From Calditrichota bacterium (GTDB lineage: Bacteria > Calditrichota > Calditrichia > Calditrichales > J004), in assembly GCA_024277115.1 (NCBI GenBank), contig JAJRVW010000181.1:1-51929 (forward strand): DNA of 51,929 nt, in the 5' to 3' direction. Under the pieces are notes generated by a model. It was given only the letters and a program-made list of their open reading frames with translations, searched no databases and had not been told where the DNA came from. The position numbers and the translations under genes are program-made. How positions within the stretch are numbered: the stretch's first letter is position 1; every line of letters begins with the position of its first letter. Of this stretch, positions 270 to 47,009 are shown piece after piece.

Positions 270-2921
270 CTACTTGATGAGGATCATTTTATTTGTTTGC
301 ATAAATGTCCCGGCCGTGAAACGTGCAAAATATATTCCTGAGGCTTGTTGAAGGCCAATTGTATTTAGCCCCTTCCATGTAAACTCATGAACACCTGAAG
401 AAAGTTTTCCTGCAAATACCTCTTTTACGAGTTTGCCTGCAGCGTTATAAATACTAAGATTAACAAGATTATCCGCTTTATCAGCAGGTATCTCGAATCG
501 CAAAGTAGTTTGCGGGTTAAACGGATTTGGAAAATTAGGGTGCAGTTTAAATGTGCTAATTATCTTCCCGGCCATCACTTCTACAACGGTATGATAAACA
601 CGCGCGCCCTCGATACTTATATCAGATAAACGATAAAGATATGTTTCGCCTTCAACAACATTGTTATCAACATAAGAGTAAGTATTTTTAATGTTGGAGT
701 TCCCTTGGCCGCGCAGCTCAGAATTTGTTTTATACGAAGCAATCTCAACAAAGCTGTCATCATATTTTAATGACTTCTCAATAATATAGCCCACATTATC
801 CAACTCGGACGCTGTTTCCCAATTTAATTTAATGGACTGCAATTCTGCAATTGCTGTAAAGGATGTTAAAGAAACAGGTAAACTGTTATCAGACGAATTT
901 GAACCAATCGCAAACTCTGAAAAAGAGGCAATATTCGCGTTAGAATATAAAGTATTACCAATGCGCAGTGTATTTACCGGAGTCCAGTTATCGCCACTTG
1001 ATGCACGTTTTAAAATCACAAGTTTATCGGGGTTGGAAATACCAACTATTCCGCTAATGTCAAGATATACTTCTGCGGTAAAGCTGCTGACCGAGCCACC
1101 ATCGGTAATGACCCAATAGCGCTGGTCACTAACCACATTTGGCGTTACCGTACTTGCGTCATTTGATGTTGCGCTACCGGTAAAACCACCTGCAACCGGA
1201 GCGGAATCGTTACGGGTGATGTCAAGTGTCCCGCCATCTGTATCAGTATTAGTTTCAAACTCAACAGCCGCGCCGGTATTGCCAATAAGGTACATAAAGG
1301 CTTGCTGTTTTATTACTTTTGCCGTACCACTTTGGGTAAAAACCATAAACTTACCAACAGGCATATCGGTGTAAGTGGTCGTTGTCCGTGCAGCGCCACC
1401 ACTTGTATTAAGCCAGTTTACCTGAATAGAGTCAATTTTTGTGGCTGTGCCCAAACCAAAATGGGCGCGCATATCTGATTGGGAACCAGCGCCAGATTGT
1501 GCTGAAATTTCACGCATTTGATTTGTTGTTGCTGTTTGTTCCGGGATATTGGCAAACACGTGGATTTGTGCACCAATAGCAGATATGTTTTTTGTTGCAC
1601 CGACAAGCTTAATATTTGCAAAAGTATTGCCATTGCTGGTAGTATTTGTATAAAGAAGAGGAATGCCATCACGGCCAACCATAAAATCTAAATCACCATC
1701 ATTATCGATATCTGAGAAAGCTACGCCGCGCCCACTACTTGTTGTACTACCATCTGATAAATCAAATGTCGTTGCAGACTCCGTTAAATTATAGCTTGGC
1801 GAACCGGAATTAATATAAAGCCGGCTTGCAGGATTTGTAAAAACACCGTCCGAGGTCGTTGTAGTAAATAAATCCAAATCACCATCATTATCAACATCGG
1901 CCCAGTCACTTCCACGTACATAAAATTCATTAGCTACTATATCAGCTGAGGTGACATCTGTAAACGCCGTTGTGCTGGCTGTACTATTGTTTTGGAAAAC
2001 AAAACTATGCTTTGTTCCCGCTTCCGGCTTTGTTCCGGTAAACAGATCCAGATCACCATCATTATCATAATCGCCCCAACCACAAGCTTGTGTTGAGGTT
2101 TGCGTTGGTCGAAGCGCTGCCGGAGTATCATCTATAAATGTACCGCTTCCGTTATTTTTCCAAAGTGTATTCAACTTTGTTGAGCCACGGGCAGTATAAA
2201 TATCCATATAGCCATCCCCATTATAATCAGCCCAAACCATTGCTCCTTGTAGGTTTGAATAGGGATTTGCTATGCCATCAATATCCGCACCAGCTATAAT
2301 AATATCCCCAATCCCACTTGGGTTTAATGTACTCCCGGAACCAGAATCATTTCTATAAACAAGGTTAGTTTCAGCGCCTTCCCCAAAAAAAGTAATCCTT
2401 CCTCTTTTTTGAAAAAGATCGATAAATCCATCATTGTTATAATCACCCCAGCCCACAACGCGGGAATCTTCAATATCATCAACAATTGGGCCAAATGAGG
2501 TATTATTAGTAAAATCCCCAGCACCATTATTTACATACAAATTATTTTTTTGTTTTGACCCACCAGAACCCTCCTGGGCATTGGCGATATGTAAATCTAT
2601 AAACCCGTCATTATTATAATCGCCCCAAGTGGCCGTACCCGATGTATGTGTTGTTGCTGTAATAACCGAAAGACCAGAATTGCTGAAGGTACCGGATGAA
2701 TTGCTAAATAGCGCATTATCATAGGGTGTTCCATCCCCACTGTTCCCGCGGCTTAAAAATAGATCAGGCCAGCCGTCATTATTATAATCAGCAACCGCAA
2801 TACCGTTTGATTCGTTTGCAATTTCATCAATATGGGTTGGACCGCTAAAAGTTTGTGCGGACAGGTTTGAAAGGAATAGTAGCAGTAGTAGGAAGAATAA
2901 AGATTGTATTGAGCGATGCAT
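270..2921 (-). CDS. Secreted FG-GAP/VCBS repeat protein with ASPIC/UnbV region and C-terminal sorting domain
   Basis: About 883 aa. A signal peptide (hydrophobic FFLLLLLFL, cleavage near LSAQ) is followed by seven calcium-binding loops of the type DYNNDGWPDLF spread over residues about 45-415, the hallmark of a seven-bladed FG-GAP/VCBS propeller. An ASPIC/UnbV-type segment follows (AIGAQIHVFA ... QSDMRAHFGLG, about 445-510), then a beta-rich region. The C-terminus is a FlgD/type-A sorting-like domain beginning PNFPNPFNPQTTLRFEIP and ending KMILIK, typical of FCB proteins exported by type IX or related secretion. The start is ATG 2921 with AAGGAGG six bases upstream; a TTG two codons earlier lies against the same box and is less likely. 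Its ligand is unknown; surface adhesion or polymer binding is inference. It is transcribed alone, between a hairpin at 3014-3044 and the terminator at 154-181. Confidence 0.85.
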   Translation of the reverse strand: MHRSIQSLFFLLLLLFLSNLSAQTFSGPTHIDEIANESNGIAVADYNNDGWPDLFLSRGNSGDGTPYDNALFSNSSGTFSNSGLSVITATTHTSGTATWGDYNNDGFIDLHIANAQEGSGGSKQKNNLYVNNGAGDFTNNTSFGPIVDDIEDSRVVGWGDYNNDGFIDLFQKRGRITFFGEGAETNLVYRNDSGSGSTLNPSGIGDIIIAGADIDGIANPYSNLQGAMVWADYNGDGYMDIYTARGSTKLNTLWKNNGSGTFIDDTPAALRPTQTSTQACGWGDYDNDGDLDLFTGTKPEAGTKHSFVFQNNSTASTTAFTDVTSADIVANEFYVRGSDWADVDNDGDLDLFTTTTSDGVFTNPASRLYINSGSPSYNLTESATTFDLSDGSTTSSGRGVAFSDIDNDGDLDFMVGRDGIPLLYTNTTSNGNTFANIKLVGATKNISAIGAQIHVFANIPEQTATTNQMREISAQSGAGSQSDMRAHFGLGTATKIDSIQVNWLNTSGGAARTTTTYTDMPVGKFMVFTQSGTAKVIKQQAFMYLIGNTGAAVEFETNTDTDGGTLDITRNDSAPVAGGFTGSATSNDASTVTPNVVSDQRYWVITDGGSVSSFTAEVYLDISGIVGISNPDKLVILKRASSGDNWTPVNTLRIGNTLYSNANIASFSEFAIGSNSSDNSLPVSLTSFTAIAELQSIKLNWETASELDNVGYIIEKSLKYDDSFVEIASYKTNSELRGQGNSNIKNTYSYVDNNVVEGETYLYRLSDISIEGARVYHTVVEVMAGKIISTFKLHPNFPNPFNPQTTLRFEIPADKADNLVNLSIYNAAGKLVKEVFAGKLSSGVHEFTWKGLNTIGLQQASGIYFARFTAGTFMQTNKMILIK

Positions 2922-3013
2922 AAGCAACCTCCTTGTTGTATAAAATTTGATTTAAGTTATATTTTGTTTTGTCGAGTGTTAAAAAGTTTAATCTAAAGTA
3001 TAGCAATACTAAT

Positions 3014-3044
3014 ATAACACCGGAAACACTCTTTCGGGTGTTAT
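3014..3044 (-). terminator. Hairpin between the esterase gene and the FG-GAP gene
   Basis: ATAACACC (3014-3021) pairs with GGTGTTAT (3037-3044) around a 15-nt loop. It sits 56 nt after the esterase stop on the minus strand, but the following T-run is weak. It could be the end of the secA transcript or part of the FG-GAP leader. Confidence 0.35.
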
Positions 3045-17346: not shown

Positions 17347-17685
17347 TTATCTATTTCTGTTTAGTAGTTTTTTTATATCTATAATATCGTTTTTTCTATC
17401 CGTTGTAGATTCTATCTTCAACTCCTGTCCTTCATCAATTATTTCCCTGATAAATGACTTTTCTAAATTTACTTCATCAAACTCCGGCTTTATCCTTTGG
17501 CTGAACAATTGTACTTGTGGTTTCTCAACCTCAATTTTTATAATCGCTTCGCCCGCTTCAACAATATCGTCTTGTTGAAAATTATTTTGTACTTGTGTGG
17601 AATCTGAAGCTTGTGCAAAACTATTTGCAACGAATAAAATCATTGTAAAAATGAATGCTAAATATAAATGTTTGATCACCTTCAT
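17347..17685 (-). CDS. Small exported protein of the envelope cluster, function unknown
   Basis: 112 aa. A signal peptide (LYLAFIFTMILFVANSFAQ) is cleaved near residue 25. The mature part is about 87 residues, rich in E, D, K and I, without Cys and without a recognisable domain. The segment EAIIKIEVEKPQVQLFSQRI looks like beta strands, and the C-terminus is basic. Its ATG overlaps the stop of the upstream TPR gene (ATGA, 4 nt), so it is translationally coupled to it. It is followed by the ExbB-type gene. Position suggests a periplasmic part of the same machine; that is inference. Confidence 0.75.
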   Translation of the reverse strand: MKVIKHLYLAFIFTMILFVANSFAQASDSTQVQNNFQQDDIVEAGEAIIKIEVEKPQVQLFSQRIKPEFDEVNLEKSFIREIIDEGQELKIESTTDRKNDIIDIKKLLNRNR

Positions 17686-20600
17686 TTAGTTTCCTTATTG
17701 CTGAGTGGAATTCTATTCTTTCTAAGTGTGTTTATTTCTTTTAATGTCTTCGGATCTACAAAGGTGGAAGAATTTACTGTTTGAGATTCGGCAGTAGAGA
17801 TTAAATCTAAAGGAACTAATTCAAAATAGCCATACAATTTTAAACCACCACCTGTTACATCTTTATCAAGAACATCAATAGCGATAATATTACTGCCTGG
17901 TTTGATAAACCTATCGAATGTATAATAGTCTAATGTATCCAATATTGAGTAGTCGTTTGCATCATCATCAATAATGTACTCACCATTAAGATACAGTCTA
18001 AAATCTTCATCGGCTGTAACATAAAGTTCCCCACCAACAATTTTCCCGTCTAACGCAAATGATTTCCTGAAGAAAACTAAGGTATCAACCGTTGTAGATG
18101 AGGCTGAGGGCATTATCGCCCCTGTAGAATCAGAGACAAGAGTTATTGCTAAAGAATCATTCACTTTATTTCCGTCAGACGTATCTGCAAGCTGTGGCAT
18201 AATTGCCACAGAGTCAATTAGTGAGTCAGTAGTTACAGGAAACGTATTTGTGACAACTACCTTTCTCATCCATATTGCAGCCGGATCAACACCAAATATA
18301 GAATACTGGTTCATAGATGAGGCAACTATTTCCACATTTTCCCAGGAAGAATCATCAAAATTTTCTTTGATCCATACGACAGGATTGTCTTTCGTAGAGT
18401 ATAGCCAGCTCTGATCTGAGCTTATTTCAATCCGTTCTTTATCAATACTTTCTGAATAGCGCACAGGATCAAGTTCCAGTAACTTCATCATTAGCTTATT
18501 AGCCCATCCCCCTTTTAGCGCATACTCCTCTTTTATTTCAAAAGCTGATTCTAATAAAGCCAAAGAATTGTCACTTAAATTAAAATAATACGTTTCTGTT
18601 GCTATCCTTCCATCATCATAATTATAATTTTGAGTGGAATCAAAAAGCGTTTCGAATTGGATGCTGGTAGAGTTTGCAGAATCGCTGAATACTTTCATTC
18701 GTTCGCTCATTTCAACAGAAAACTGGAGCAGCCTTTCTTTGGTACTAATTGTAATATCATTTTCTATACCATTGTCCATAGCAAGTTGCAGTGTCTTTGC
18801 ATATGCTTTAATAGTGTTTAGCGATAATGTTATACTTTCATCGATCATCTGATTTGCATCATTATCTACCCCATAATAATCGAGGCCTTGAGAATTTTTA
18901 GCTCCAAACTCTTTTGAAATTAGTTCTTTATAGTCATTAAAGTTTTTTTCATACTCATCTAAGCTTGTAATGGCGAGTTCTTCATATTCATCGCCTAAGA
19001 TATTAGAGGTAAGCAAGATTTGTCTTTTAGACTCCTCAACATATTTATTTAAAAGTCCCATTTCGTCAGCTTCTTTAATATTTCTTAAATGTGCATTAAT
19101 CGTTTGCTCTACAGCTGGGCCAACAACTGTTGTGAATACTGAACTTTTATATAAAATTGAAGATAAGACATTGCTTGTAGGCGGCTCAATATTTAAAGCA
19201 TTATCTACATTTTCGGACGTTAAACTAGCTTGGGCATAAAGCAATTTTGAAATTTTATCTTTAGCTTTTGTATACCATTTTACTGCCAGGTCTCGGGTCG
19301 AGTCAACTTCAACTTCACGTGCCTGCAGAGTATCAGTGGCGCCCATCTCAATATTTGAGGAATCGGTACTACCAAACATATTAATATTTAATTTGTCGGC
19401 GATGACAGGAATTTTCTCAATTACATCTTTGTATCGATTTACAGCGTTTTCATACAATGCGGCAGATTGTTCATTTATTTGCTTCTTTTTTACAAATTTC
19501 TTGTTTTTATCAAGATTTGGGTTTAGCTCCTGCTTCACATAAATATCAGCAAACTCTTCAAAACTTCGTGCTGTATTATATATCGCTTCAAAACTTCTGG
19601 GAGAACCAAAAGCCAACACTTTTGTGTATGCTGTATTTAACTCTGTCAATAAACCTTTCAACTTCTGTTGTTGGTCATCAATATTAGATTGAGGCTGGGT
19701 AAGGCGAATATCTACAAATTCATCGTGCAGAATGTTTGCAAGCTTGTGAACGGCTTCACCGGCAATAAATGGATTTGATTCTTTACCAGCCTTTTTGAAC
19801 TGCTCACTTTTTGCGATAGCCTTATTGTATTCTGTTTTGGCTGCCTCTGTTTGGTTATTATTCAGAAAATAATTACCACGCTCATAAAAGGCGGTTACAA
19901 CACGATCATCATTGGGATATTTTTTGGCAAACTCATCATAGATTTTGTTTGCTGAGACCAAATCATCAAGCTTTAAATAGAGCTCTGCATTTTTGAAAAA
20001 CAGATCAACCGAATAATCCAAAGCAGGGTACGTCGCAATATATAAATTATTTATACGGATAGCTTCTAACCATTCCCCGGCTTTTTGATAAAAATAGCTG
20101 CTGTTATAAAGTTTGGTTTCAATATCGGGCGAGTCTGGATAAGAAGTAAAAATGCGCTCGGAAATATTAGCTGCATTTGAAAATTGTTCAAGCTCTTTAT
20201 AATTGTCCACCATTTTATTTAAAGCATCTACAGCAAATTTTGACTTAGGGAAATTTGTTGCAATAATATCGAATGTTTCGTTTGAGCGAACCCAGTCCCT
20301 TGCTTTTTCATAGTTTAATCCCGCGTTCCATAATGCAGGCTCTACATAGCGTTTATCATCCGGGGCTTCTTTATAAAGTCGTATAAACTCATTGGCCGCA
20401 GCAAAAAAATCACCCTGTTCGGCGAGGAATTCAGCATTCTTAAAGATGGCTTCTGCTAAACGCCTGCTTGCAAATTCACGTTGTTCTTCGGGGAGGTTTT
20501 TATCGCTTAAGATACGTTTTGCAATAATTTCACTGTCTTTAAATTTACCCAGAGCAAAATAGGAATCCATAATGGAGCGCATTGCCAAACTTTTCTCTTT

Positions 20601-22484
20601 TGCACCCGGGAAGCGGCGAACCAAGGTTTGAAAATATACTTTGGCCTCACCAAATTTTTTGTGGTTGTAATAAATACCGCCTGCACTTGCCAGAAAGTTG
20701 GGTGTATATTCACCGTTTGGAAATAATCTTATATAATTATCATAAGACTGAATCAAGTTCGTCTCTTCAGGTGTAAGCGTTTCCGGGCTTAACTGGGCAA
20801 TATCCGCCAGACTAACTTTTGCACTGTCTTGCCCACCGTATTTTATTTTCACAATCGTATCTGCAACACCTACTGCATACGATGCCGCGTTATGCTGATG
20901 ATTCGTTTCGAGATAGTCATTGCTCACAGTTAAATATTCTTCGAAAGCTTCATCAAAACGACTTAGTTCTTTATCTAACATTAGTGCATAGTTCCAATGA
21001 ATTTCATACGCATTGGAATCACTTGGGAAAAGAGATAAGTATTCTTTACATCCTCTTCCAAATTTTTCCCATAAAGCAACATTTGGGGTACCTTCAGCTT
21101 TTAATTCCTGGGCTTTATTAAGGTCATAAATCAGATTTGTCCTAAACGCTTCTTCACTATTCTTATATGCTGCATTTAAATACTTTACTTTATCGATATT
21201 ATCAGAATTCTCTAAATTTGTGTACCAGGCAGCCTTTGGATTATACAATTTATATAATTTTTCTCTTTCGGAATATGCAAGGACATCTTTCCCCTCCGAG
21301 AACACTGCCTTTGCAATATAATCCTGCATCAAAGGAGCCTCTTTATAATTTGGATACATATCTAAAAGGGTGCTAAAGGCATATATTGCTTTTTGTTGTT
21401 CATCAATTTTTTGATAGGTTTGCCCAATGGCACGCATTATATCAACACCAAAAGGCTTATCGCCAATTTTCTGGATCATGCGGCGCGCCTTATTTACGCC
21501 CTCAGGGGTATAAGCTTCGTCAGTAAAACTGATCCCTATATACTCAATTGCCTCATCCCGCACATTAGGATTGCTTATTGCCTGTTTGGGGTCTAATTTT
21601 TTTGCACGGTCAATATCATCTGCAACGGCTACAAAATAGGCTATCGCATCATTATAATATTTGGGATCGTGCGATGCCAATTTATAGTAGCTCCATCCTA
21701 ATTTGTAAAGAGCTTCATCATATCTTCGTGATTTTTTATAGCGCAATACTTTTTTATATAACTGAATTGCCTTACGCAATTCTAAAATTGACTGTTCGTC
21801 ATCTGTTTTATCTTCACGTGGCTTAAAATAATATTCGGCAAGGTTAATATAAGATTCCGGCGCAAAAGGGCTATCAGGGTATTTATCTATAACTTCCTGG
21901 AACAGGCGTCTACTTTGTAGGCCATCATTCATTTTATTTTTAAGCCAGGCAACACTATAAAGGGCATCATCTGCATAGTCACTGGCAGGATATTCACTTA
22001 ATAGTTTTTCGTAAACTTGAATTGCCTTCGAATAATCTTTTTTGGGGTCCTCGGGAAGTTCCGGTTCAGTACCTATTTCACCGGTTGTAAATTGTTCGTA
22101 CTTTTTCTCATACAAGGTAAATAATTTATCAAATTCATCATTGTCTATTTCATATTGCCGATCAGCCTCTTCGATGTAGTACTCTGCAATACGAATATAT
22201 ATTTTATCCCGGTCCTTTATCTTTAAGGCATCATCGGATAAAAAACTTTCACCCAGTTTTTTACCTTCAATTAGTGATTTTTCTTCATCCTTCTGAAGTT
22301 TCTTTGCCTTGCGGTCATAGAATTTTTTTATTTCCATGAGCTCATCGATCGAGACTTTTTCAAAAAGCGAATCCCGGCTGGCCAAATCTTTGTTTTGCGC
22401 AAACACTGGCTTCCCGATAAGCGCGATTGAAGCAATCACTATGATCAATATCAAATTACGGTTGAACTTAATTTTACTTTTCAT
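17682..22484 (-). CDS. Giant exported TPR-repeat protein (about 1600 aa)
   Basis: From ATG 22484 the product is 1600 aa, with a signal peptide (LILIIVIASIALIGKPVFAQ). Many tetratricopeptide-type helical pairs follow over residues about 150-900 (e.g. YEKLLSEYPASDYADDALYSV, LFQEVIDKYPDSPFAPESYI in parts), the pattern of periplasmic scaffold proteins. After a helical region comes a C-terminal beta-sandwich (about 1370-1570) with VWIKENFDDSSWENVEI and DFRLYLNGEYIIDD, resembling a galactose-binding/jelly-roll module. An alternative ATG at 22520 overlaps the upstream stop (TAATG) but would give an unusually long signal-peptide n-region. The protein probably acts as a large periplasmic or outer-membrane scaffold for the ExbB/ExbD/AgmX machine (inference). 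Confidence 0.82.
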   Translation of the reverse strand: MKSKIKFNRNLILIIVIASIALIGKPVFAQNKDLASRDSLFEKVSIDELMEIKKFYDRKAKKLQKDEEKSLIEGKKLGESFLSDDALKIKDRDKIYIRIAEYYIEEADRQYEIDNDEFDKLFTLYEKKYEQFTTGEIGTEPELPEDPKKDYSKAIQVYEKLLSEYPASDYADDALYSVAWLKNKMNDGLQSRRLFQEVIDKYPDSPFAPESYINLAEYYFKPREDKTDDEQSILELRKAIQLYKKVLRYKKSRRYDEALYKLGWSYYKLASHDPKYYNDAIAYFVAVADDIDRAKKLDPKQAISNPNVRDEAIEYIGISFTDEAYTPEGVNKARRMIQKIGDKPFGVDIMRAIGQTYQKIDEQQKAIYAFSTLLDMYPNYKEAPLMQDYIAKAVFSEGKDVLAYSEREKLYKLYNPKAAWYTNLENSDNIDKVKYLNAAYKNSEEAFRTNLIYDLNKAQELKAEGTPNVALWEKFGRGCKEYLSLFPSDSNAYEIHWNYALMLDKELSRFDEAFEEYLTVSNDYLETNHQHNAASYAVGVADTIVKIKYGGQDSAKVSLADIAQLSPETLTPEETNLIQSYDNYIRLFPNGEYTPNFLASAGGIYYNHKKFGEAKVYFQTLVRRFPGAKEKSLAMRSIMDSYFALGKFKDSEIIAKRILSDKNLPEEQREFASRRLAEAIFKNAEFLAEQGDFFAAANEFIRLYKEAPDDKRYVEPALWNAGLNYEKARDWVRSNETFDIIATNFPKSKFAVDALNKMVDNYKELEQFSNAANISERIFTSYPDSPDIETKLYNSSYFYQKAGEWLEAIRINNLYIATYPALDYSVDLFFKNAELYLKLDDLVSANKIYDEFAKKYPNDDRVVTAFYERGNYFLNNNQTEAAKTEYNKAIAKSEQFKKAGKESNPFIAGEAVHKLANILHDEFVDIRLTQPQSNIDDQQQKLKGLLTELNTAYTKVLAFGSPRSFEAIYNTARSFEEFADIYVKQELNPNLDKNKKFVKKKQINEQSAALYENAVNRYKDVIEKIPVIADKLNINMFGSTDSSNIEMGATDTLQAREVEVDSTRDLAVKWYTKAKDKISKLLYAQASLTSENVDNALNIEPPTSNVLSSILYKSSVFTTVVGPAVEQTINAHLRNIKEADEMGLLNKYVEESKRQILLTSNILGDEYEELAITSLDEYEKNFNDYKELISKEFGAKNSQGLDYYGVDNDANQMIDESITLSLNTIKAYAKTLQLAMDNGIENDITISTKERLLQFSVEMSERMKVFSDSANSTSIQFETLFDSTQNYNYDDGRIATETYYFNLSDNSLALLESAFEIKEEYALKGGWANKLMMKLLELDPVRYSESIDKERIEISSDQSWLYSTKDNPVVWIKENFDDSSWENVEIVASSMNQYSIFGVDPAAIWMRKVVVTNTFPVTTDSLIDSVAIMPQLADTSDGNKVNDSLAITLVSDSTGAIMPSASSTTVDTLVFFRKSFALDGKIVGGELYVTADEDFRLYLNGEYIIDDDANDYSILDTLDYYTFDRFIKPGSNIIAIDVLDKDVTGGGLKLYGYFELVPLDLISTAESQTVNSSTFVDPKTLKEINTLRKNRIPLSNKETK

Positions 22485-22519
22485 ACTTTTAATCCAAAAA
22501 ATTCCCATGTGAAAATTCA

Positions 22520-25135
22520 TTATTGATCAGACTCATCTTCATCAAAACTTGGTGGAATTGTATTGATATCCAAATTATTTATGTTATTGCTATCTTCTGT
22601 TTCATGTGTATCAAAATAACTCTCTTCAAACTGACGATTTAATTCTTCCCGCTCACGAATTCTTTCTTGACGTCGCACTCTACGTGTCATTAACGTAATT
22701 TCGTTTTGAATTTGCTTAATTTTATGAACAACATACTCTTTACGCTTCATCAAGAGATCATTTATTTTTTGAATTTGCTCGCGCATTTGACCAATCTGTT
22801 CTTTCTGCAAACTGCGGATAGCGAAGTTTACATTCGCCAGGCCAAAAGCGCCATAATCGCTCCAACGGCTGAGGTTGATATTAGTCTGGCGCATTTTCAT
22901 CGAGTAAACCCAAGTATCAACATAATCCAATTTTTTCAACAAGTCGATAAAACGTTCTTTACTAATTTCAAGATTGGCCAGTTTCTTATAATCACTGCGT
23001 GATTTTGCATTAGAAATCTGGACATCTAGCCGGGCAATTTTAGCAATAATATCTTTGCGCTCACTCTCAGAATCTTCCCGCATTTTGCTAATTTTTTTAT
23101 TTTCCAGCTCAACAACACTTTCTTTCCGCGCCAGGGGGTGTTCATCAAAATAATTAAAACCCAGCACCGAACTACTTTCGATCGGATATGCATTTATAGC
23201 ACGATAAATCTTTAATTGCATGGTTTCAATACGTTCTAAAAGGACATCATCATTCTTTTCAGTTGCCTTTTGTTTCAGGCGATCCAATTCTGTGATTTGT
23301 GCTTTTAAACGTTTTACTTCATTATTTGCAGCAGTTCCAACGGGGCTTAAATCAGCATACTTCAACTTAAACAACGGTTTTTCAACTTTCTCACGCATTA
23401 TTACTGCCCGGTTAAAAGCATTCATGTTTCTCGCTTCTAATGCTTTATTCTCTAGTCGCGAGGCTGTTTTAACTATATCTTCTAATTTTGTTTGTTGCTC
23501 GTTTAGATTGTCGGAATGCTCCTTTACTTCTTTCGCATTATATGCAAACCTAAAATTATCGATAGCGCCATTGGTGTCAAATTGCAGTTGGTTGATATAT
23601 CCCAGTAAAGTCCTGGCTTCAAGATTATATTCAGAATTTAAAAAATTATTAATTAATAATTCCAAATATTGTTTGGCATTATTAAAGTTTCGGTCAGTAA
23701 TTAATTTACCAATTTCCATTTTGTAAAATGACCAGCTATAGCCCATTAAAACACGATCATAATTGGGGTATCGGGCAGTAATTTGATCGAAATACCTGAT
23801 AGCTCCAGCGGGGTTCCCTAACTCATACTGGATATAACCCATCTTTGCTAAAATATCAAACCGGAAATCCGGCTCTAAATCGGGTGTTTTTAAAATTGAG
23901 TTTAATACATTGAATGCTTCTTCAAAATTATTTGCACCAGTCAGGGCTTTTGCCTGAATAAACCGTCCGTAATTATATAAAGATGATTTTGGGTTTATTT
24001 CATAGGAAAGAGAAACAGCGTCTTCATAAAACTTACCGTTCAAAGCAGCATTAATTGCTAATAAAAGTGCTTCTTCATATTGGCCATCTGTGCTGGAGAT
24101 GATATTCTGCATCTGGCGAAAATGATTGACCGCCTCACCATATTTTTCAAAATGGCTGCTTATTTCGATCAGACGTTTATATGTTCTAGGCGCATAGGAA
24201 GATGAAGGATAATCATTTATAATTTCTTCAAATTGCTCTTCGGCCATATTAAAACGACCTAAATGATAATTACACTCTGCCATGTAAAATAGAACATCGT
24301 CAAGTTCACCTATCTGGCCGTAATTTTTCAATATTTCATCAAACGAAAGTTGCGCCAATTCATAATAACGGAAATTATAAGCTTGGACAGCTTGTTGCAA
24401 TTCGCGCTTGAACATACGTTGCATATCACCAACAGTAGATTTTTTTATGAGCCTTTTCTTTACAACGGCAATATCTGTTAAACGCAAATGATATTTTATC
24501 CGCTCTGTCTTTTTCCATTCGTTATAAACATCAAATATACTGGCCTGTGCATCGGAACTACGGCTAACTTTAGAATTACCTGTACTGCCAAAAGATGAAA
24601 CTATTTTGTTATTAGCCTTATTTAGGCCCTCAATTATCTGGGGGTTTGTACTTAAATTTGTTGCCGGGTCCAGCTTAATCAATTCCTCAGCAAGATAAAG
24701 TAATTGTATAGCATCGTCAAAAACACGTTGGCGCTTATAATCCATAACGCCTTTATCGATTGTCGATTCAATTCTTTTTTCCAGGTCATCGATAAAACTG
24801 TATAGCTGACTGCCCGAAGCCGGAAGACGGTTTTTTAAAGCGTCAATTTCCTTTAGGCTTGCTTTCAACTTATCAAAATATTTTGCCCTTTTATCAGAGA
24901 CACTACCAACCCGCGCTTTTATTTCTTCATTTATCATGCGGATTTGTTGCACAAGATAGCGTTCTTTTTCAATATTTTGTTCGCCATAACGTGTCAACAG
25001 CTTATTAATATATGTCTTAAGATGATCATTAAACTGCTCATCCGTAACACTGTTGGACTGGGCATAATTGGAATTAATTAAAAGGAAAAAAACCGAAAGG
25101 CAAGTAAACCACTTGGAAAGGGTTTTAAAACGCAT
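22520..25135 (-). CDS. Exported TPR and coiled-coil protein (about 871 aa)
   Basis: Starts at ATG 25135 with AAGGTG six bases upstream. Signal peptide (WFTCLSVFFLLINSNYAQ). The N-terminal third is helical and highly charged. Residues about 255-540 contain TPR-like units (LDDVLFYMAECNYHLGRFNM, FEEIINDYPSSSYAPRTYKRL in parts). The C-terminal third is again coiled coil, ending in an acidic, Asn-rich tail (SNNINNLDINTIPPSFDEDE). Its stop overlaps the first ATG of the next TPR gene. It is the first gene of the envelope cluster; the 103-nt gap to atpC must hold the promoter, but I see no convincing -35/-10 pair. Confidence 0.8.
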   Translation of the reverse strand: MRFKTLSKWFTCLSVFFLLINSNYAQSNSVTDEQFNDHLKTYINKLLTRYGEQNIEKERYLVQQIRMINEEIKARVGSVSDKRAKYFDKLKASLKEIDALKNRLPASGSQLYSFIDDLEKRIESTIDKGVMDYKRQRVFDDAIQLLYLAEELIKLDPATNLSTNPQIIEGLNKANNKIVSSFGSTGNSKVSRSSDAQASIFDVYNEWKKTERIKYHLRLTDIAVVKKRLIKKSTVGDMQRMFKRELQQAVQAYNFRYYELAQLSFDEILKNYGQIGELDDVLFYMAECNYHLGRFNMAEEQFEEIINDYPSSSYAPRTYKRLIEISSHFEKYGEAVNHFRQMQNIISSTDGQYEEALLLAINAALNGKFYEDAVSLSYEINPKSSLYNYGRFIQAKALTGANNFEEAFNVLNSILKTPDLEPDFRFDILAKMGYIQYELGNPAGAIRYFDQITARYPNYDRVLMGYSWSFYKMEIGKLITDRNFNNAKQYLELLINNFLNSEYNLEARTLLGYINQLQFDTNGAIDNFRFAYNAKEVKEHSDNLNEQQTKLEDIVKTASRLENKALEARNMNAFNRAVIMREKVEKPLFKLKYADLSPVGTAANNEVKRLKAQITELDRLKQKATEKNDDVLLERIETMQLKIYRAINAYPIESSSVLGFNYFDEHPLARKESVVELENKKISKMREDSESERKDIIAKIARLDVQISNAKSRSDYKKLANLEISKERFIDLLKKLDYVDTWVYSMKMRQTNINLSRWSDYGAFGLANVNFAIRSLQKEQIGQMREQIQKINDLLMKRKEYVVHKIKQIQNEITLMTRRVRRQERIREREELNRQFEESYFDTHETEDSNNINNLDINTIPPSFDEDESDQ

Positions 25136-25247
25136 ACCAGGCACCTTATTTTATTTAACCCTTTGTAATTTTATTCAAAAGGATTTGAAATTATTGTTCA
25201 GATGTGTTTATTGGGAGGAAAGTAAATATAAAAAAACCAGAAGTAAA

Positions 25248-38528: not shown

Positions 38529-40817
38529 TTATTTAAGTAAAACTAATTTGCGGATTTGTGTAAATCCTGTATTTGTTGCAATTCTATAATAATAAATACC
38601 GCTGCTAAGGTTTGGCGCATTAAAATGGACGGCATATTTCCCTGCCGCCTGTTTTGCATTGGTCAATGTTTTAATCTCACGGCCAAGCGCGTCATACACA
38701 ATCAACTTTACATAAGAGGCTGTTTTTAGTTCGTAAGTGATGCGGGTTGAAGGATTGAAGGGATTTGGATAGTTTTGCCGTAAAGCAAATTTGAAAGGGC
38801 GGGGATTATTTTGATCAATTGATGAAACATCTTCCCGTACTTCTATTACCCACATATAATCCAACGCATCAAATCCATTGGAAAACTCTACCCTTACCGT
38901 ATCAAAGCGGGGCACATTAAAAGAAGATGCCCGATAATTATAAATGGGGCTCGTTGATTTTTGCACACCGTTTAAAAACCAAATATGGTTTATAGAATAA
39001 CCTGATGAATCTTCTGCAAAAACCTCAAAAGCGATACGCTCACCTTTTTCAATAAGGGTGTCCGGCTTAGTGGGGAACGTACCCGAAACCACAATGCCGG
39101 GCCGGCCTTGCACATGCATATAATTTTCAAAAAGCCTTTCCCTTGTCTCCAGTCCGTTAGAGGCAGAAAGCCTGACGCTGTAAATCCCCAAAGTATCATA
39201 ATGCCAAACAGGATTTTGATCGGTTGCATCAATAACGCCGTCATTATCAAAATCCCATTCCCAGGATTGTAGCGGTTCATTTTCGTTGGATATGGACAAA
39301 TCCAAAAAAGAAGCCGTATCTTTCTCAAAAATCAAACTGCTCTTTGCCCGGAAATTTATCCTAAAAAAAGTGGATGGCGTTCTTTCCCTGATTAATTTTG
39401 TCTGGTTTGCGGGAATACTTCCCATCACATCTGTTTGTCCCGAGGGCCATAAAATGATAAGTGAATCAATTTGAGCTGCATCGGCCAATCCAAAATGAAC
39501 TTCCAGGTTTTGGCCGCAATAGCCGCTTTGCCCGGAAACTGTGCGCATCTGCCAGACTGTTTTCCCGTTTATCTATGCTTTTGCCTTTACCACTGCACCA
39601 ATCGCCGAGACATTGCTAATCGAACCTTGTAATTTTAAAACAATCCAATTATTTGTACCGCCATTATTCATAAAAAGAGCATTATTTTCATTGGCATTAA
39701 AACATTTCGCCACGGCCAAATCAAGAAAACCATCCCGATTATAATCCCCAAAAACAGCGCCATAGGCCCATCCTAAATCCCGGGAAACAATACTCGTATC
39801 TTTGCTAAAAGAACCATCGCCATTATTAAAATAGAGAAAGTTTTTAGTCCGGTCCGTTGTAAAGGCATTGGCCACAAATAAATCAAGGTCACCGTCATTG
39901 TCCACATCGCCCCAGGCCGTACCGATGGAATAACCCTTATCATTTACGATAATCCCATCGGTGATCCGCTCAAAGGTACTGTCACCATTATTTTTATATA
40001 GAAAGTTATTTTGCCCTTTAAAATTGGCGACAAATAAATCGAGATCACCATCATTGTCGTAATCCGCCCAACTGCTGCCAAATGAATCCCCACCGTTGTT
40101 TACAATTGCCCCATCGGTTACTTCAGTAAAACTGCCATCGCCGTTTGCTTTAAACAGATGATTGTTTTGATTGTCTTCGTTTGGAATGAATAAATCAATA
40201 TCGCCATCATTATCATAATCTGCCCAATCAAAGTGGCGCGACTTTGCCGTTTTTTCAGTCAATGGGATACCGGAAACTTTGTAAAAGGATTCAGCCGTTT
40301 GACTTTTATAAAAAAAGTTTTTTCGATCGCCGCCGCTGTTGGCCACAAACAAATCCAGGAATCCATCAAAATTAAAATCATGCCAGGAACCCGCCTCAGA
40401 ATATCCACCACTGAGCGAAACGGTATCGGGCAACAAACGAAATGTTTTGTCTCCATTATTTATATAAAGAAGGTTGTTTTTTCCGTACCAGTTGGCCACA
40501 AATAAATCGGCAAAACCATCGTTGTTAAAATCGCCCCAGGTGCTGCCATCCGAAGGACTTTTGTCGTGCGTAATGGCCATGGAATCTATTTTGGTAAATG
40601 AGCCGTCCCCATTGTTTTCATAAAACATATTGTTTTCCCCTGCCCTTGGCCCATTTGTAAAAAACAGGTCCAGGTCGCCGTCATTATCATAATCAATCCA
40701 GTTGGCGCTACGTGAATCGCCGCCATCCATAGCTGGGGCGAGGGATTCCATTTTTGTAAATTGCTGGGCCATTGAAACAGAGAGAGTGCTGATCAAGAGT
40801 AAGTATAAAATTTTCAT
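38529..40817 (-). pseudogene. Secreted FG-GAP/VCBS protein with ASPIC/UnbV, PKD and sorting domains; in-frame TAG
   Basis: One 763-codon frame interrupted by a single TAG at codon 415 (39575-39573), with no frame change. The first part has a signal peptide (ILYLLLISTLSVSMAQ) and seven Ca-loops (DYDNDGDLDLFFTN, DFNNDGFADLFVAN and so on), then VSAIGAVVKAKA. After the TAG the same domain continues (INGKTVWQMRTVSGQSGY, LEVHFGLADAAQIDSLII). A PKD-like domain follows (SWEWDFDNDGVIDATDQNP ... YSVRLSASNG), then a C-terminal sorting domain (NYPNPFNPSTRITYEL ... IRKLVLLK). The stop falls inside the ASPIC/UnbV domain, so the upstream product would lack the sorting tail. Nonsense mutation or base error; readthrough is not supported. 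Confidence 0.82.
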
Positions 40818-41072: not shown

Positions 41073-41831
41073 TTATTTGTTAAGCGCGGCGAAAAAATGA
41101 TCACGATAGGAACGGCTTAAGGTAAACTGCCGGCCTGATATGGTTTTAACGAGGTAATCCCCTTTTGAGATGGGCTCAAACTCTTTGACAAGATCGAGCC
41201 TGATAATTGTTGAGCGGTGGATACGGCAGAACTCGGACGGATTTAATTGTTTTTCCAATTTGCTTAACCGTTCGCGATATAAAAATACGTCCTCTTTGGT
41301 ATGGATTTTAACATAGTCTCCATCAGCCGAAAACCATAAAACCTGCCCTATATTTAAAACGATTGTTTTTCCACGCTCTTTAACAACCAGCCGTTTTATA
41401 TTCTGTTTTACTTGCGCAGAACCATTGATGAGTGCGGATAATTTTTGATGAAAGGATTGTTCCTGATCGCTCTCGGTAAGTTTTTTTATACGCTGAAAAG
41501 CATCACGAAAAAGTTGCTCGTTAACAGGTTTAAGAAGATAATCCACCGCATGGACCCGAAAGGCCTCGAGGGCAAATTCATCAAAAGCGGTCACAAAAAT
41601 AAAATAGGGTAGTTTTTCCATTTTGAGATTAGCGATCACCTCAAAGCCATTCAGGCCGGGCATTTGAATATCAAGAAAAACCAAATCAGGCTGCAAAGTA
41701 GAAATTGCATCACATGCTTCAACGCCGTCCTTGCATTCCGCGACAATCTGAACATCTTCATCTTTTAATAAATGGCGGAGCCCTTTTCGGGCAAGCTCTT
41801 CATCATCTACAATTATTGTTTTTAAGGACAT
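41073..41831 (-). CDS. LytTR-family response regulator
   Basis: 252 aa. The receiver domain (1-120) has the acidic pocket DDEE (9-12), phospho-acceptor Asp 54 in LVFLDIQMPG, Thr in FVTAFDEFA and Lys in YLLKPVNE. The LytTR DNA-binding domain (about 145-250) contains VKERGKTIVLNIGQVLWFSA, YVKIHTKEDVFLYRERL and CRIHRSTIIRLDLVKEFEP. It regulates transcription through direct repeats. The LytS-like kinase is 221 nt upstream on the same strand and is the expected partner. Confidence 0.93.
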   Translation of the reverse strand: MSLKTIIVDDEELARKGLRHLLKDEDVQIVAECKDGVEACDAISTLQPDLVFLDIQMPGLNGFEVIANLKMEKLPYFIFVTAFDEFALEAFRVHAVDYLLKPVNEQLFRDAFQRIKKLTESDQEQSFHQKLSALINGSAQVKQNIKRLVVKERGKTIVLNIGQVLWFSADGDYVKIHTKEDVFLYRERLSKLEKQLNPSEFCRIHRSTIIRLDLVKEFEPISKGDYLVKTISGRQFTLSRSYRDHFFAALNK

Positions 41832-42052: not shown

Positions 42053-43117
42053 TTACAATGGAATCTCTATCAAAACCCTTGTCCCTTTGTCTTGCTCATT
42101 TTCTAATCTAAAATTATAATCAGCCCCATAAAGCGAGTCCAGCCGTTTTTGCATATTTGTTAAACCAAGTCCGAGGTTATTTTCCGAATGGGCTTGTTGC
42201 CCCTCGCCCTGCCCATTGTCTAAAATCTGCAATGCGAGGAGGTTCGATTTTTTTTTGGCTATTATCTGTATCAAGCCCTCTCCACGCTTTTTGGCAACGC
42301 CGTGTTTAATGGCATTTTCTACAAGTGGCTGAAGTAAGAGTGACGGAATATTTATCGAAAGTGTTTCAGGGGAGACATCTATTTCTATTTTTAAACGGTT
42401 GCCAAACCGTATTTTCTCTATAGCCAAATAATCTTTAATAAAGCTAATTTCCGCTTCCAAAGTAACAAACTGTTGGCGTGCATGTTTAAGGGAATAACGC
42501 AATAAATCACTTAAAAGATGGATTGTTTTATCGGCCAGTTTGGGGTTTTCGCGGGTTAACACCGAGATTGAATTTAAAGTATTAAATAAAAAATGGGGTT
42601 GAAGCTGCGCCTTTAAAACATCCAGTTGGGATTGAACCAAATCTGATTGGAGCCGCATCGACCGGGCATGCTCATCTTTTAATTTTTTATTATAGATCAT
42701 TACCTGAATTACAAAAAGCATTATAAAATAAACCAGCATGCTGTAATCAAAGGTCGAAAAAACATTGATATATATCCGGGGACCTGTGATACCCTGAACG
42801 CCTTCCTTAATCCAAAGCCTGTAAACAACGTAGCTTGAACTATGGATGATGGAAACCAGGATCGCTGCGGATAGATGAACAGTTCCCGGCAATGCCCAGC
42901 GTTCTTTACTAAAAGGGAATTGTCGGGACAAGAAGACTGTAATCGGCATGAGAAAGAACCATAGAATAAAATTCGGCATATCAATAATTAAAATATCAAG
43001 CCAATTTACATCTTGTCCAATCTCCACACGGTAAAAATAAGACTGTGCAGAATATAGAAGCCCGGCCACAGCCCAGACCGAAAAGATAATAAGTATATTT
43101 TTTAAATTTTTATACAC
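42053..43117 (-). CDS. LytS/YehU-type membrane sensor histidine kinase
   Basis: 354 aa from GTG 43117 with AGGATA just upstream. Four hydrophobic segments (about 8-28, 41-63, 80-100, 123-141) anchor the N-terminal half. The kinase part has the His_kinase motif LQPHFLFNTLNSISVL (His about 175) and an HATPase with LLLQPLVENAIKHGVAKKR (N box), DNGQGEG and NNLGLGLTNMQKRL (G boxes). This is the class that pairs with LytTR regulators, encoded downstream. The upstream small frame ends inside its ribosome binding site. Confidence 0.92.
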   Translation of the reverse strand: MYKNLKNILIIFSVWAVAGLLYSAQSYFYRVEIGQDVNWLDILIIDMPNFILWFFLMPITVFLSRQFPFSKERWALPGTVHLSAAILVSIIHSSSYVVYRLWIKEGVQGITGPRIYINVFSTFDYSMLVYFIMLFVIQVMIYNKKLKDEHARSMRLQSDLVQSQLDVLKAQLQPHFLFNTLNSISVLTRENPKLADKTIHLLSDLLRYSLKHARQQFVTLEAEISFIKDYLAIEKIRFGNRLKIEIDVSPETLSINIPSLLLQPLVENAIKHGVAKKRGEGLIQIIAKKKSNLLALQILDNGQGEGQQAHSENNLGLGLTNMQKRLDSLYGADYNFRLENEQDKGTRVLIEIPL

Positions 43118-43433: not shown

Positions 43434-46400
43434 TTATAAATTGTCAACTATTTTATTAATCTTATCTATAATAAAGCCAATATCCTTTGGTCTGTCCTCA
43501 AAATCTTTTTTAAGACAATTTTCCACTAACTCGCCCCATATAGGATTAATATCAGGCCTCAACTCCAAAATGGGCTTGGGTTGATAATTAAAAATGGCAT
43601 GGATCAAACCCATTTCATTTTCTGCATTAAAGGCAAGCGTATTACTCAATAATTCATAGATTATCACCCCAAGTGAAAAATAATCCGAGCGTTTGTCGAT
43701 TTGCAAACCGGTAATTTGCTCCGGCGCCACATAGGCCAACGTACCCATTGCCGTACCCAAATTAGTCATGGTGGAAACAATGGGCGCTTTGGAAAGCCCA
43801 AAATCCATGATGCGTATATTTCCATCGGAATCGAGCATAATATTATTTGTTTTCAGGTCCCGGTGAATGATTTCTTTTTTGTGGATGACTGCCAGCCCGG
43901 AACAAATCTGTAATAAAAAGTTAGCGACACTTTTTTCAGACAGGGGATGGTTCTCCCGGATATATCGTCTTAAAGTGCCCCCTTCCAAAAGCTCCATAGC
44001 AATATAGCCCTGATAACCAGACTCCGAAACCTCAAAGACGCGCACAATATTTGGGTGTTCCAGAGTCTCCAATATTTGACACTCGCTGTCAAACCGTTTT
44101 TTATTATCCGCACTTTCCAATAATTCTTCACGCAAAACTTTTAGGGCCACTCTTTGTTTACTTTGAATATCCAGTGCCTTAAACACACGCCCCATACCGC
44201 CTTCGCCAATTTTTCCCAATATTTTATAATGCGAAATATAGCGTGTCTGGCGGTTTTTTATAATGTAATTACGGGTCAGCAAAAAGCTTACGGCAGCCAG
44301 CAATCCCACCAAAGAAGGGATAATGTTTATAACCAAAATTGAGCTGAGGATCAAAAAATGATAGCTTATAATAAAGAAGGAAAATGGAAGAATAAAAAAT
44401 ACAGGATTTTTAAAAGACTCTATAATCCCAAACCTTTTAAAAATAAAAAGAACAACGGCCAGTAAAAGAAAAAATAGAACCACGCCTAAAAGATTCTCAA
44501 ACCTTAATAATTGCCAGGTGCGCATTATGTCTTTTTTAACAAGATAAAAATAGTGCCCGAATAAACCGGATTCATTTACAACATACGTTGTCCCCATCTT
44601 TAAATCTGTAAAATGATGTGTTTGGCCAGATGGAAAAATTATTTTAGCTGAATAGGAAAAATCCGGATTAAGCCCAAAATGGGTTTCATTCAGGCGGGCA
44701 ACCGTGCCAGGCGATGCGCCTAATCCTGTTTGTTTTTGCGAGACATAAACCGTGTCCTGGTTCGTATCGAGGGCAAAAAGATAAATGCGCGCTCCAATGG
44801 CCATGCGGTTGCTAATATCGCCTTTCAGTTTAAATTTTACAAAATGCTTATTGTCAAGATTGTTTTTATAGAGCGCCGCCCGTTTCCCTTTGCCCAGGCC
44901 ATATTCGGAACTGCCAAAAAATATATCCATGTCACCGTCATTATCTATATCTGCAAGTGATGGCGTGCCAATAAAATGAATACCGGCCTTTTCCGTAATT
45001 TCATCGAACAACATATTTTGTTTATTTAGAAACACCCGGCCACCAACAACTAAATCCATCCAACCGTCATTATTCAAATCAGCTGCGTTAATAATACCGC
45101 CAACTTCTTCTTTATGTCTTAATTTTATTTTTAACCCACCCATCTCCGCCACTTTAAAAAAAGTCGCATCACCACTATTTTGCAATAAAATAGGATGCCT
45201 GTCCTGATTAAACAAAAGCAGGTCCGTAAAGCCATCATTATTCAAATCTTCCGCCAGCGCCGCCTTTATATAAATGGAGTATTCCAAACTAAAAAAACAC
45301 GGACTGTCAAATCGTTTAAATTTAAAAGCGCCTTCATTTAAAAAGCAGTCCAGGTAGCGGCCGTTTTGCGCCTTGTCCCGGTAAGGGATTATAATATCTA
45401 CCAGGCCATCTGCATTCAGGTCAGAAAAAACCGTGCCAAACGGCCTAAGCTCCGATAACTTCGCGAGGGCCACAGCCTTGGTAATATCCGTAAAGTTGCC
45501 CGTCCCCTGCCCGGCAAAAATAAAATCCTGGTCGGTATAATTGGACATGTAAAGATCGAGATTGCCGTCATTATCCAGATCAACCAAACTTACAGTCCTG
45601 TTACTGATAAAATCCGCCAGGCTGTCTTGCATAATTTTAAGGCCACTAAATGGTGTAAAATCAAAGCCGGAGGTTCCCAATAATAATCGATAGGTTTCTG
45701 AATCAGAAATTTCAAACAGATCGGCTGTACCGTCATTATTTATATCGGCGATCATCGCATTGTGGTAATCAACCTCCGAAAGCAAACCGGCGCTAAGGCT
45801 GACATCGGCAAACTGCGTGTGGCCATTATTTCTGAAATAATGATTGGGGCCTTCATTTACCACAAACAGATCAAGGTTGCCATCATTATCCTGATCGTTG
45901 ATTATGGCCGTAGTACCTTGTGTTTTTAGGGAAGCCGATTGGGTGATTTCCGAGAAAGAAAGTTGTGAACTATGGGCATTTGTGTAAATTCCGGTATGCC
46001 CCATCAGCCAGATAAGCTGCTCTCCCGCCTTATTATAAACAATTTCCAAATCCTGAAAATAGTCCTTGTAATCTTTAAAGGCGCCAGGTTCCCGCCAGCC
46101 ATTTCCATCAAAATTTATCAGGCGGCTATTTTCGCCACAGACCCACGGCTGTCCTTTGTTATCAAATTTAACCGCCGTAAAATTATCACGATATTTTGTT
46201 TTAACCCGTTGCCATCGCCCTTCGTCAAAACGAAGAATCGTCCCCTTTTCGCCAACAATCCAACCCTTTTTTTGAGAGTTAAAATTTACATTTTTAAGAT
46301 TATTTTTTGTGGGGGATTTAAACAATTTCCAGCTTTTGTTTTCATATTTTAAGATGATGCCATTTTTCCCGACCGCCCAGCCCAAATCAGCATTTATCAT

Positions 46401-47009
46401 TTTAAGCGCGTTTAAATCAACACTAAACATACTGCTGCGCGGCAAATCTTTTAAGGGCGATTTGTATTCCTGCCATTCCCGTCCATCATAATAAAGGATA
46501 TTTCCCAACTGCCCCACCATCCAGGCTGTACCGTCTTCCAAAAGATCGATAGCTTGCCACATGGAATAATCCTGATTATCCCACATCACTTTGGGCAAGG
46601 AAATATTTTTCACTTTATTAGATGTGACCACATTAAATATTGGTTGATAATCGCCATTATGGGTGAGATGATTTACCGACCACACAGTCGAGGTATCGAT
46701 CGGGATGATGAGTGGAAAATCCGAATACGGAAAAGAATAAATCGCCGTCCATTGTTTACCGTCATATTTATAAAGCCTGCCCGGCACATCACCACGGCCA
46801 CGGGAAATAGCAAAACCGTTCTTATCGTCGATCATTTTTATGGAAGCGCCAAGATCCATCTGGGCCTGCATGTACCAGGTTTGGCCGGCTGAAACATCAA
46901 CAGTTGGCCCGCCAGTTTTTTTTTCAGGATTACAAGCATTAATAAGGAACATCAACGCAATTAAAAAAGTGAGGAATGGCTGCTTAAAATTTGAGTAAAT
47001 AGTTTTCAT
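43434..47009 (-). CDS. Receptor Ser/Thr protein kinase with extracytoplasmic FG-GAP propeller sensor
   Basis: 1191 aa, intact. The N-terminus has a lipobox-like end (LIALMFLINAC, Cys about 26). Residues about 40-370 look like a first beta-propeller of Ycf48/BNR type (LGWAVGKNGIILKYENKSW, GWIVGEKGTILRFDEGRW). Residues about 380-745 carry seven Ca-loops (DQDNDGNLDLF ... DIDNDGDMDIF), then an ASPIC/UnbV segment (AIGARIYLFA ... HFGLNPDFSYSAKIIFPSG, about 755-815). Three or so membrane helices (about 840-925) lead to a C-terminal Hanks-type kinase (about 928-1191). The kinase has P-loop GEGGMGRV, Lys in VALKVL, HRDLKTNN, DFG, APE and the SDYFSLGVIIYELL helix, all intact. The order is reversed compared with PknB-type receptors, whose kinase is N-terminal. 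Downstream lie a LytS/LytTR pair and an FG-GAP protein. Confidence 0.9.
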   Translation of the reverse strand: MKTIYSNFKQPFLTFLIALMFLINACNPEKKTGGPTVDVSAGQTWYMQAQMDLGASIKMIDDKNGFAISRGRGDVPGRLYKYDGKQWTAIYSFPYSDFPLIIPIDTSTVWSVNHLTHNGDYQPIFNVVTSNKVKNISLPKVMWDNQDYSMWQAIDLLEDGTAWMVGQLGNILYYDGREWQEYKSPLKDLPRSSMFSVDLNALKMINADLGWAVGKNGIILKYENKSWKLFKSPTKNNLKNVNFNSQKKGWIVGEKGTILRFDEGRWQRVKTKYRDNFTAVKFDNKGQPWVCGENSRLINFDGNGWREPGAFKDYKDYFQDLEIVYNKAGEQLIWLMGHTGIYTNAHSSQLSFSEITQSASLKTQGTTAIINDQDNDGNLDLFVVNEGPNHYFRNNGHTQFADVSLSAGLLSEVDYHNAMIADINNDGTADLFEISDSETYRLLLGTSGFDFTPFSGLKIMQDSLADFISNRTVSLVDLDNDGNLDLYMSNYTDQDFIFAGQGTGNFTDITKAVALAKLSELRPFGTVFSDLNADGLVDIIIPYRDKAQNGRYLDCFLNEGAFKFKRFDSPCFFSLEYSIYIKAALAEDLNNDGFTDLLLFNQDRHPILLQNSGDATFFKVAEMGGLKIKLRHKEEVGGIINAADLNNDGWMDLVVGGRVFLNKQNMLFDEITEKAGIHFIGTPSLADIDNDGDMDIFFGSSEYGLGKGKRAALYKNNLDNKHFVKFKLKGDISNRMAIGARIYLFALDTNQDTVYVSQKQTGLGASPGTVARLNETHFGLNPDFSYSAKIIFPSGQTHHFTDLKMGTTYVVNESGLFGHYFYLVKKDIMRTWQLLRFENLLGVVLFFLLLAVVLFIFKRFGIIESFKNPVFFILPFSFFIISYHFLILSSILVINIIPSLVGLLAAVSFLLTRNYIIKNRQTRYISHYKILGKIGEGGMGRVFKALDIQSKQRVALKVLREELLESADNKKRFDSECQILETLEHPNIVRVFEVSESGYQGYIAMELLEGGTLRRYIRENHPLSEKSVANFLLQICSGLAVIHKKEIIHRDLKTNNIMLDSDGNIRIMDFGLSKAPIVSTMTNLGTAMGTLAYVAPEQITGLQIDKRSDYFSLGVIIYELLSNTLAFNAENEMGLIHAIFNYQPKPILELRPDINPIWGELVENCLKKDFEDRPKDIGFIIDKINKIVDNL

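Follow-up and report, generated by a model that had tools for sequence, protein, structure and literature searches.

A predicted receptor Ser/Thr kinase with a YCF48, FG-GAP and ASPIC sensor in a Calditrichota bacterium, and the sigma54 activators beside its relatives

Introduction

Contig JAJRVW010000181.1 of a Calditrichota bacterium (assembly GCA_024277115.1) was analysed over 51,929 nucleotides, and this whole stretch is termed the window. A single unbroken open reading frame with an ATG start, exactly at 43434..47009(-), encodes a protein of 1191 aa that appears to be a receptor serine/threonine (Ser/Thr) kinase. An earlier, sequence-only reading had proposed an FG-GAP/ASPIC sensor with the kinase at the C-terminus, and Pfam, AlphaFold and a structural match to CRTAC1 agree with it. 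That reading overlooked two further properties of the family: the same sensor is found on histidine kinases in the same genome, and a GAF-sigma54 activator gene usually lies beside the Ser/Thr-kinase versions. The larger finding, which lies beyond this gene, is that kinase type and activator type go together across the family.

Domain architecture

The features of the locus are listed in Table 1. Pfam places Pkinase (PF00069) at residues 928-1174 (E 7.9e-60; 202.9 bits, cut-off 31.7), and the motifs VALKVL, HRDLKTNN, DFG and APEQ can all be read, as the sequence-only reading had stated. By these sequence features the protein is a Hanks-type Ser/Thr kinase with a complete active site, and catalytic activity is predicted.

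The central propeller is recognized by two FG-GAP models, PF13517 (E 4.3e-32 over four stretches; 111 bits, cut-off 26.9) and PF01839 (E 2.4e-12; 46.9 bits, cut-off 22.1), by a propeller fold in the AlphaFold model and by the CRTAC1 match. All seven DxDNDG-type loops seen earlier are present: DQDNDG, DINNDG, DLDNDG, DLNADG, DLNNDG, DLNNDG and DIDNDG. The Asp columns of these loops are largely invariant in alignments of 33 and of 56 relatives. Because this holds across receptors with different outputs, calcium in the loops is more likely to be structural than to be the signal that is sensed; the sequence-only reading had named calcium, together with a surface polymer and a partner FG-GAP protein, as a possible stimulus.

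The FG-GAP/ASPIC part of the sensor was described correctly, but a domain in the first third of the protein was missed. PSII_BNR/YCF48 (PF14870) is matched around residues 152-261 (E 7.1e-11; 42.3 bits, cut-off 27), and this score together with the structure model indicates another propeller, of the YCF48 type, in that region. The N-terminal part thus consists of propellers. ASPIC/UnbV (PF07593), at 737-809, scores 19.5 bits with the whole protein and 24.1 bits in a six-frame search, the gathering cut-off being 23.4. Paralogues score above the cut-off, and it is because of these and of the CRTAC1 match that the domain is identified as ASPIC. Hydropathy and AlphaFold place three transmembrane (TM) helices between the ASPIC domain and the kinase, and these are kept in both the histidine-kinase and the Ser/Thr-kinase paralogues.

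Table 1. Features of the receptor gene and of its neighbours (window positions; residues are those of the receptor)
Feature	Position	Strand	Basis
Receptor Ser/Thr kinase coding sequence, 1191 aa	43434..47009	-	Open reading frame, Pfam, AlphaFold
Predicted lipoprotein signal peptide, residues 1-26; lipobox LINA/C, Cys26 the predicted lipidated residue	46932..47009	-	Sequence pattern and orthologue conservation
YCF48/PSII_BNR-type beta-propeller, ~residues 45-355	45945..46877	-	Pfam PF14870, AlphaFold, Foldseek match to YCF48
FG-GAP/VCBS beta-propeller with seven DxDNDG-type loops, ~residues 360-718	44856..45932	-	Pfam PF13517/PF01839, Asp columns, Foldseek match to CRTAC1
ASPIC/UnbV beta-sandwich, ~residues 723-812	44574..44843	-	Weak PF07593, paralogue alignment A1, CRTAC1 match
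Helix 815-834 and three TM helices, 837-859, 869-886 and 891-921	44247..44567	-	Hydropathy, AlphaFold, conservation
Hanks Ser/Thr kinase domain, residues 928-1189	43443..44228	-	PF00069, PknB-like fold
LytS-type histidine kinase (His_kinase + HATPase_c), next gene downstream	42053..43117	-	Pfam; order kept in the same-genus genome
LytTR response regulator (Response_reg + LytTR)	41073..41831	-	Pfam
Secreted FG-GAP/ASPIC/PKD protein with type IX sorting tail	38529..40817	-	Domain searches; intact in the same-genus genome

Structure models

For the whole protein, AlphaFold2 gave a mean predicted local distance difference test (pLDDT) of 86 and a predicted template modelling score (pTM) of 0.71. 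The model shows the strands of two propellers and a sandwich, followed by the four helices of Table 1 and the kinase, which is structurally closest to PknB-type kinases. Since kinases dominated the results when the full-length fold was searched, the sensor (residues 42-836, aligned with 56 relatives) was modelled alone, with pLDDT 90 and pTM 0.88. Its best PDB match by Foldseek is CRTAC1, an FG-GAP and ASPIC protein (9etn); second are the periplasmic double propellers found in Bacteroides hybrid two-component systems (4a2m), with PorZ and YCF48 (5oj5/2xbg) following. A profile search of PDB sequences concurs (CRTAC1 1.9e-39, YCF48 ~1e-18). A viral fold library yielded nothing beyond kinases and generic propellers.

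Lipobox and topology

The hydrophobic stretch at the N-terminus ends in LINAC, with Cys at position 26. A lipobox Cys is found in all 20 members of the window protein's subclade that have a complete N-terminus, at an overall identity of ~35-63%, and in each it sits 15-23 residues ahead of a conserved W[YF]xQ..VDLG motif. The lipobox is found in none of 61 relatives without a Ser/Thr kinase. These comprise 49 histidine-kinase receptors and 12 others, ten of the latter having a receiver neighbour and the single one run through Pfam carrying HisKA_3. As the lipobox is confined to one clade, it points to a single evolutionary event kept by selection. The lipoprotein assignment is made from the sequence pattern, hydropathy and orthologue conservation.

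The sequence could also be an ordinary signal peptide in which the Cys occurs by chance, with no lipid anchor. The Asn at position -2 of LINAC is not textbook, and several other Ser/Thr-kinase receptors (L016, L083-L086) have no lipobox. Against this, every complete orthologue keeps the Cys after the hydrophobic stretch and 15-23 residues from a conserved motif, and all 61 of the other relatives lack it; this explanation is considered very unlikely.

Basic residues follow the first TM helix (K-R) and the third (RNYIIKNRQTR), and these loops fit an N-terminus outside and a kinase inside. An exported N-terminus followed by three TM helices likewise puts the kinase in the cytoplasm. A predicted lipid anchor combined with three TM helices is the best reading of the topology; it is unusual, as had been remarked earlier, yet consistent with the data.

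Distribution of the sensor

The FG-GAP/ASPIC/3TM module is homologous to that of a family of two-component sensor kinases. In the same genome, ASPIC-bearing open reading frames of similar length share the module and end in histidine kinases (L013, L014, L015), and each of these is followed by a receiver-sigma54 (NtrC) regulator. The genome also has a second Ser/Thr-kinase receptor (L016). Over the family as a whole, most members carry histidine kinases and adjoin receiver-sigma54 response regulators.

Two profiles were used in surveys of other genomes, A1 covering the ASPIC-3TM part and A3 running on into the N-terminal lobe of the kinase. With A1, such receptors, matched over most of their length, occur by our count in 34 of the 40 host-phylum genomes surveyed. 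With A3, 391 genomes of the class of an Ignavibacteriales metagenome-assembled genome (MAG) gave 21 Ser/Thr-kinase receptors and ~38 of other types. A profile scan of genome contigs, which may omit near relatives, returned only two full-length matches, L145 in a Bacteroidetes MAG and L146 in the Ignavibacteriales MAG. The 29 Ser/Thr-kinase receptors, coming from two lineages, rule out a chance or single-genome fusion.

The surveys do not point to a general bacterial architecture either; outside, the matches were of ASPIC type only. No such receptor was found in 347 genomes of the Geothrix phylum (Acidobacteria-like) or in 133 of a Zixibacteria-like phylum. Single genomes from Latescibacterota, Myxococcota and other groups likewise gave no full sensor-plus-3TM match; these searches scored few candidates from each genome, and absence is not proof.

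In a tree of the sensors only (92 rows, kinases left out) the Ser/Thr-kinase sensors form one clade, with a Shimodaira-Hasegawa-like approximate likelihood ratio test (SH-aLRT) value of 96, and the tree requires just one change between outputs. A tree of the kinases, built with FastTree only and to be taken as a hint, puts 27 of 28 FG-GAP kinases in one supported set together with Reg_prop kinases, one FG-GAP kinase falling outside.

Other sensor and output combinations were encountered. Receptors with Reg_prop, Y_Y_Y, TM and Ser/Thr kinase parts, which have the sensor type of hybrid two-component systems, occur at L017 3086-6349(-) (contig C88 of the window genome, G000), L084 529-3798, L088, L089, L091 and L092; their Hanks kinase is ~50% identical to the kinase domain of the window protein. 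A third output of the family, HisKA_3, is seen at L276 4585-7992(-) and at nine similar loci (L275-L283, L287), Pfam having been run on L276 only, and each of these loci is followed by a gene for a receiver-bearing protein of ~209 aa. In the second Ser/Thr-kinase receptor of the genus, at L016 2174-5611(+) in one genome and L084 7844-11284(+) in the other, the catalytic loop reads HRDLTSFN for HRDLKxxN, the Lys being replaced by Thr.

Partner genes and kinase type

The same-strand downstream neighbours of 94 receptors were classed with local hidden Markov models. Receiver-AAA-HTH (receiver-sigma54) genes follow 44 histidine-kinase receptors, and GAF-AAA genes follow none. Among the Ser/Thr-kinase receptors, 19 of 29 are followed by a GAF-AAA (GAF-sigma54) gene, one of these being cut by a contig end after the GAF domain, and none by a receiver-AAA gene. 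By Pfam the partners consist of GAF, Sigma54_activat and an AAA lid, with no receiver. At two further loci (L255 and L261) a GAF-sigma54 gene lies ~2.6 kb from the receptor, and at L273 it overlaps the reading frame.

The association of kinase type with activator type has a Fisher p of 1.6e-16, but this value is pseudo-replicated, each state being largely one clade. It overstates independence because the sensor tree has a single output change, with the Ser/Thr-kinase sensors in one clade. The weight of the pairing lies rather in its staying intact across deep divergence.

Three stand-alone Ser/Thr kinases of the host genome are encoded directly behind GAF-sigma54 activators (G000: C120 4856-7082, C50 18418-20621 and C25 19067-21295), and the pairing of kinase and GAF activator is therefore a wider theme in this genome. 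It may be asked whether the receptor is instead an envelope monitor of the PASTA-kinase kind, which phosphorylates many cytoplasmic proteins and for which gene neighbours are incidental. The PknB-like fold of the kinase would suit such a role, and, according to PMC4601284, pleiotropy is common among the bacterial Ser/Thr kinases that have been characterised. A pleiotropic monitor leaves unexplained both the all-or-none pairing of kinase and activator and the further kinase/GAF-sigma54 pairs of the host genome, and it appears quite unlikely.

At L255, L257 and L261, from three related genomes of the Ignavibacteria class, the receptor gene is near an ammonium transporter gene and a Gcw_chp outer-membrane-type gene. 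This neighbourhood hints at a nitrogen-linked sigma54 target.

Gene neighbourhood in the window

The order receptor, LytS, LytTR and FG-GAP/ASPIC type IX protein is kept in a second genome of the genus (G001), with identities of 62, 58, 63 and 73%, respectively. In G001 there is an 8-base overlap between the receptor stop and the start of LytS, and LytS in turn overlaps LytTR, which suggests a single transcript. The receptor might now act chiefly together with the products of these adjoining genes, its kinase tuning LytS/LytTR and the secreted FG-GAP/ASPIC protein being its ligand or a product that it regulates. The conserved block is, however, known from two genomes of one genus only, and in the window a gap of ~316 bp separates the receptor from LytS. 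In addition, LytS has a histidine-kinase output of its own, and the FG-GAP/ASPIC gene of the window carries an in-frame TAG at 39573-39575(-), within the ASPIC domain. A pathway centred on the neighbours is a possibility of rather low probability.

The GAF-sigma54 orthologue is encoded elsewhere both in the window genome (contig C55) and in G001, with 54-55% identity to the partner at L146. The in-frame TAG in the window, and an in-frame TAA in this activator gene, are possibly recent nonsense changes or assembly errors, since both genes are intact in G001.

Two other regions of the window may be mentioned. At 270-2927(-) there is another FG-GAP/ASPIC protein, whose C-terminal end resembles the type IX tail encoded at 38529-40817. 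Two adjoining genes at 17682-25144(-) encode TPR proteins of very large size, 1612 and 874 aa, in which the repeats are YbgF/BamD-like.

Relation to known systems

PknD of Mycobacterium tuberculosis is described, where PMC6213207 cites Good et al. 2004, as a receptor Ser/Thr kinase with an extracellular beta-propeller. The window protein resembles it in joining a transmembrane Hanks kinase to an extracellular propeller sensor. PknD has one six-bladed propeller, whereas the window protein has two propellers and an ASPIC domain, three TM helices, a C-terminal kinase and an N-terminal lipobox. In PknD the kinase comes first.

Bacteroides hybrid two-component systems of the BT4663 type (Reg_prop + Y_Y_Y) share the succession of two propellers, beta-sandwich, TM segment and kinase. 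The window protein differs in having other propeller families, ASPIC in place of Y_Y_Y, a Ser/Thr kinase in place of a histidine kinase, and three TM helices. Reg_prop, Y_Y_Y and HisKA/HATPase are absent from its Pfam result, and it is not a member of that group. By analogy it would work like PknD and the BT4663-type systems, and it belongs to neither.

CRTAC1 and bacterial secreted FG-GAP/ASPIC proteins have the same FG-GAP propeller with ASPIC, but as secreted proteins they lack both the membrane part and the kinase. The first propeller (PF14870) is that of the YCF48/HCF136 assembly factors, which are single-domain proteins with no receptor function; cyanobacterial Ycf48 is annotated as a lipoprotein (PDB 8am5). 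PASTA receptor kinases (PknB/Stk1) are alike in kinase fold and catalytic motifs and have the reverse domain order. Membership of that class was rejected, with an NF033483 score of 270.6 bits against a cut-off of 450 and no PASTA domain in Pfam. The FHA-type sigma54 activators of Myxococcus reportedly act downstream of Ser/Thr kinases. In the present case the N-terminal domain of the partner is GAF and its neighbouring gene encodes the kinase, a propeller receptor, in contrast to the FHA-type activators (Jelsbak et al. 2005, cited in PMC12288465).

A literature search that covered few subscription papers found no description of a receptor kinase with FG-GAP or ASPIC domains, and there is in this respect no sign that the architecture is already common and described.

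Proposed mechanism

It is considered slightly more likely than not that the window gene encodes an inner-membrane receptor Ser/Thr kinase, the ancestral output of which is a sigma54 activator regulated by phosphorylation. The lipid and the TM helices would both hold the sensor at the membrane. A ligand would bind the propellers, whose loops are probably built around Ca2+, and binding may move the ASPIC/TM unit. Two kinases brought together in this way could undergo trans-autophosphorylation, and the kinase could then phosphorylate a DNA-bound regulator. Across the family, the most likely candidate for this regulator is the adjacent sigma54 activator, which has a GAF domain where the histidine-kinase relatives have a receiver. 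Receptor and activator would then use Ser/Thr phosphorylation for the task that the related histidine kinases accomplish through phosphotransfer to Asp. In the genus of the window the output may be the unlinked activator, LytS/LytTR, or both; it is uncertain because the activator is encoded elsewhere and the receptor heads the LytS/LytTR block.

Several points weigh against this proposal. Adjacency of genes is no proof of phosphorylation, and the activator could be a sensor in its own right, as small molecules are bound by GAF domains. Eight of the 29 Ser/Thr-kinase loci have no recognised partner within 900 bp, and the window receptor gene itself adjoins LytS/LytTR, not a sigma54 activator. 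The unlinked activator gene of the window genome (L296 ~1231-3030(+), contig C55) has the in-frame TAA, and may be broken or carry a sequencing error; its counterpart in G001 (L294 1399-3186) is intact. A scan of the window for sigma54-type promoters gave results at chance level.

A more extended proposal is that of a natural kinase swap, which we put forward tentatively, at somewhat less than an even chance. Here the output would have changed once, from histidine to Ser/Thr kinase, with the activator changing from receiver to GAF. The result would be a dedicated, one-to-one Hanks kinase/sigma54 pathway that is the equivalent of a two-component system. Its receptor would be anchored by an N-terminal lipid as well as by three TM helices, possibly tethering the sensor across the periplasm.

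Significance

Bacterial Hanks kinases are usually viewed as pleiotropic, with few dedicated transcription partners. The protein described here is a predicted receptor Ser/Thr kinase of a known general kind, and what is unusual is the matched set of apparent natural kinase swaps around it. The sensor module occurs both with histidine kinases and with Ser/Thr kinases, and either chemistry has a distinct type of sigma54 activator beside it. These matched natural proteins make it directly testable whether, in a dedicated pathway, a Hanks kinase can take the place of a histidine kinase. The combination of YCF48, FG-GAP, ASPIC and 3TM, for which no description was met in the literature searched, defines a new class of periplasmic sensor, and it provides a candidate function for ASPIC domains in membrane proteins.

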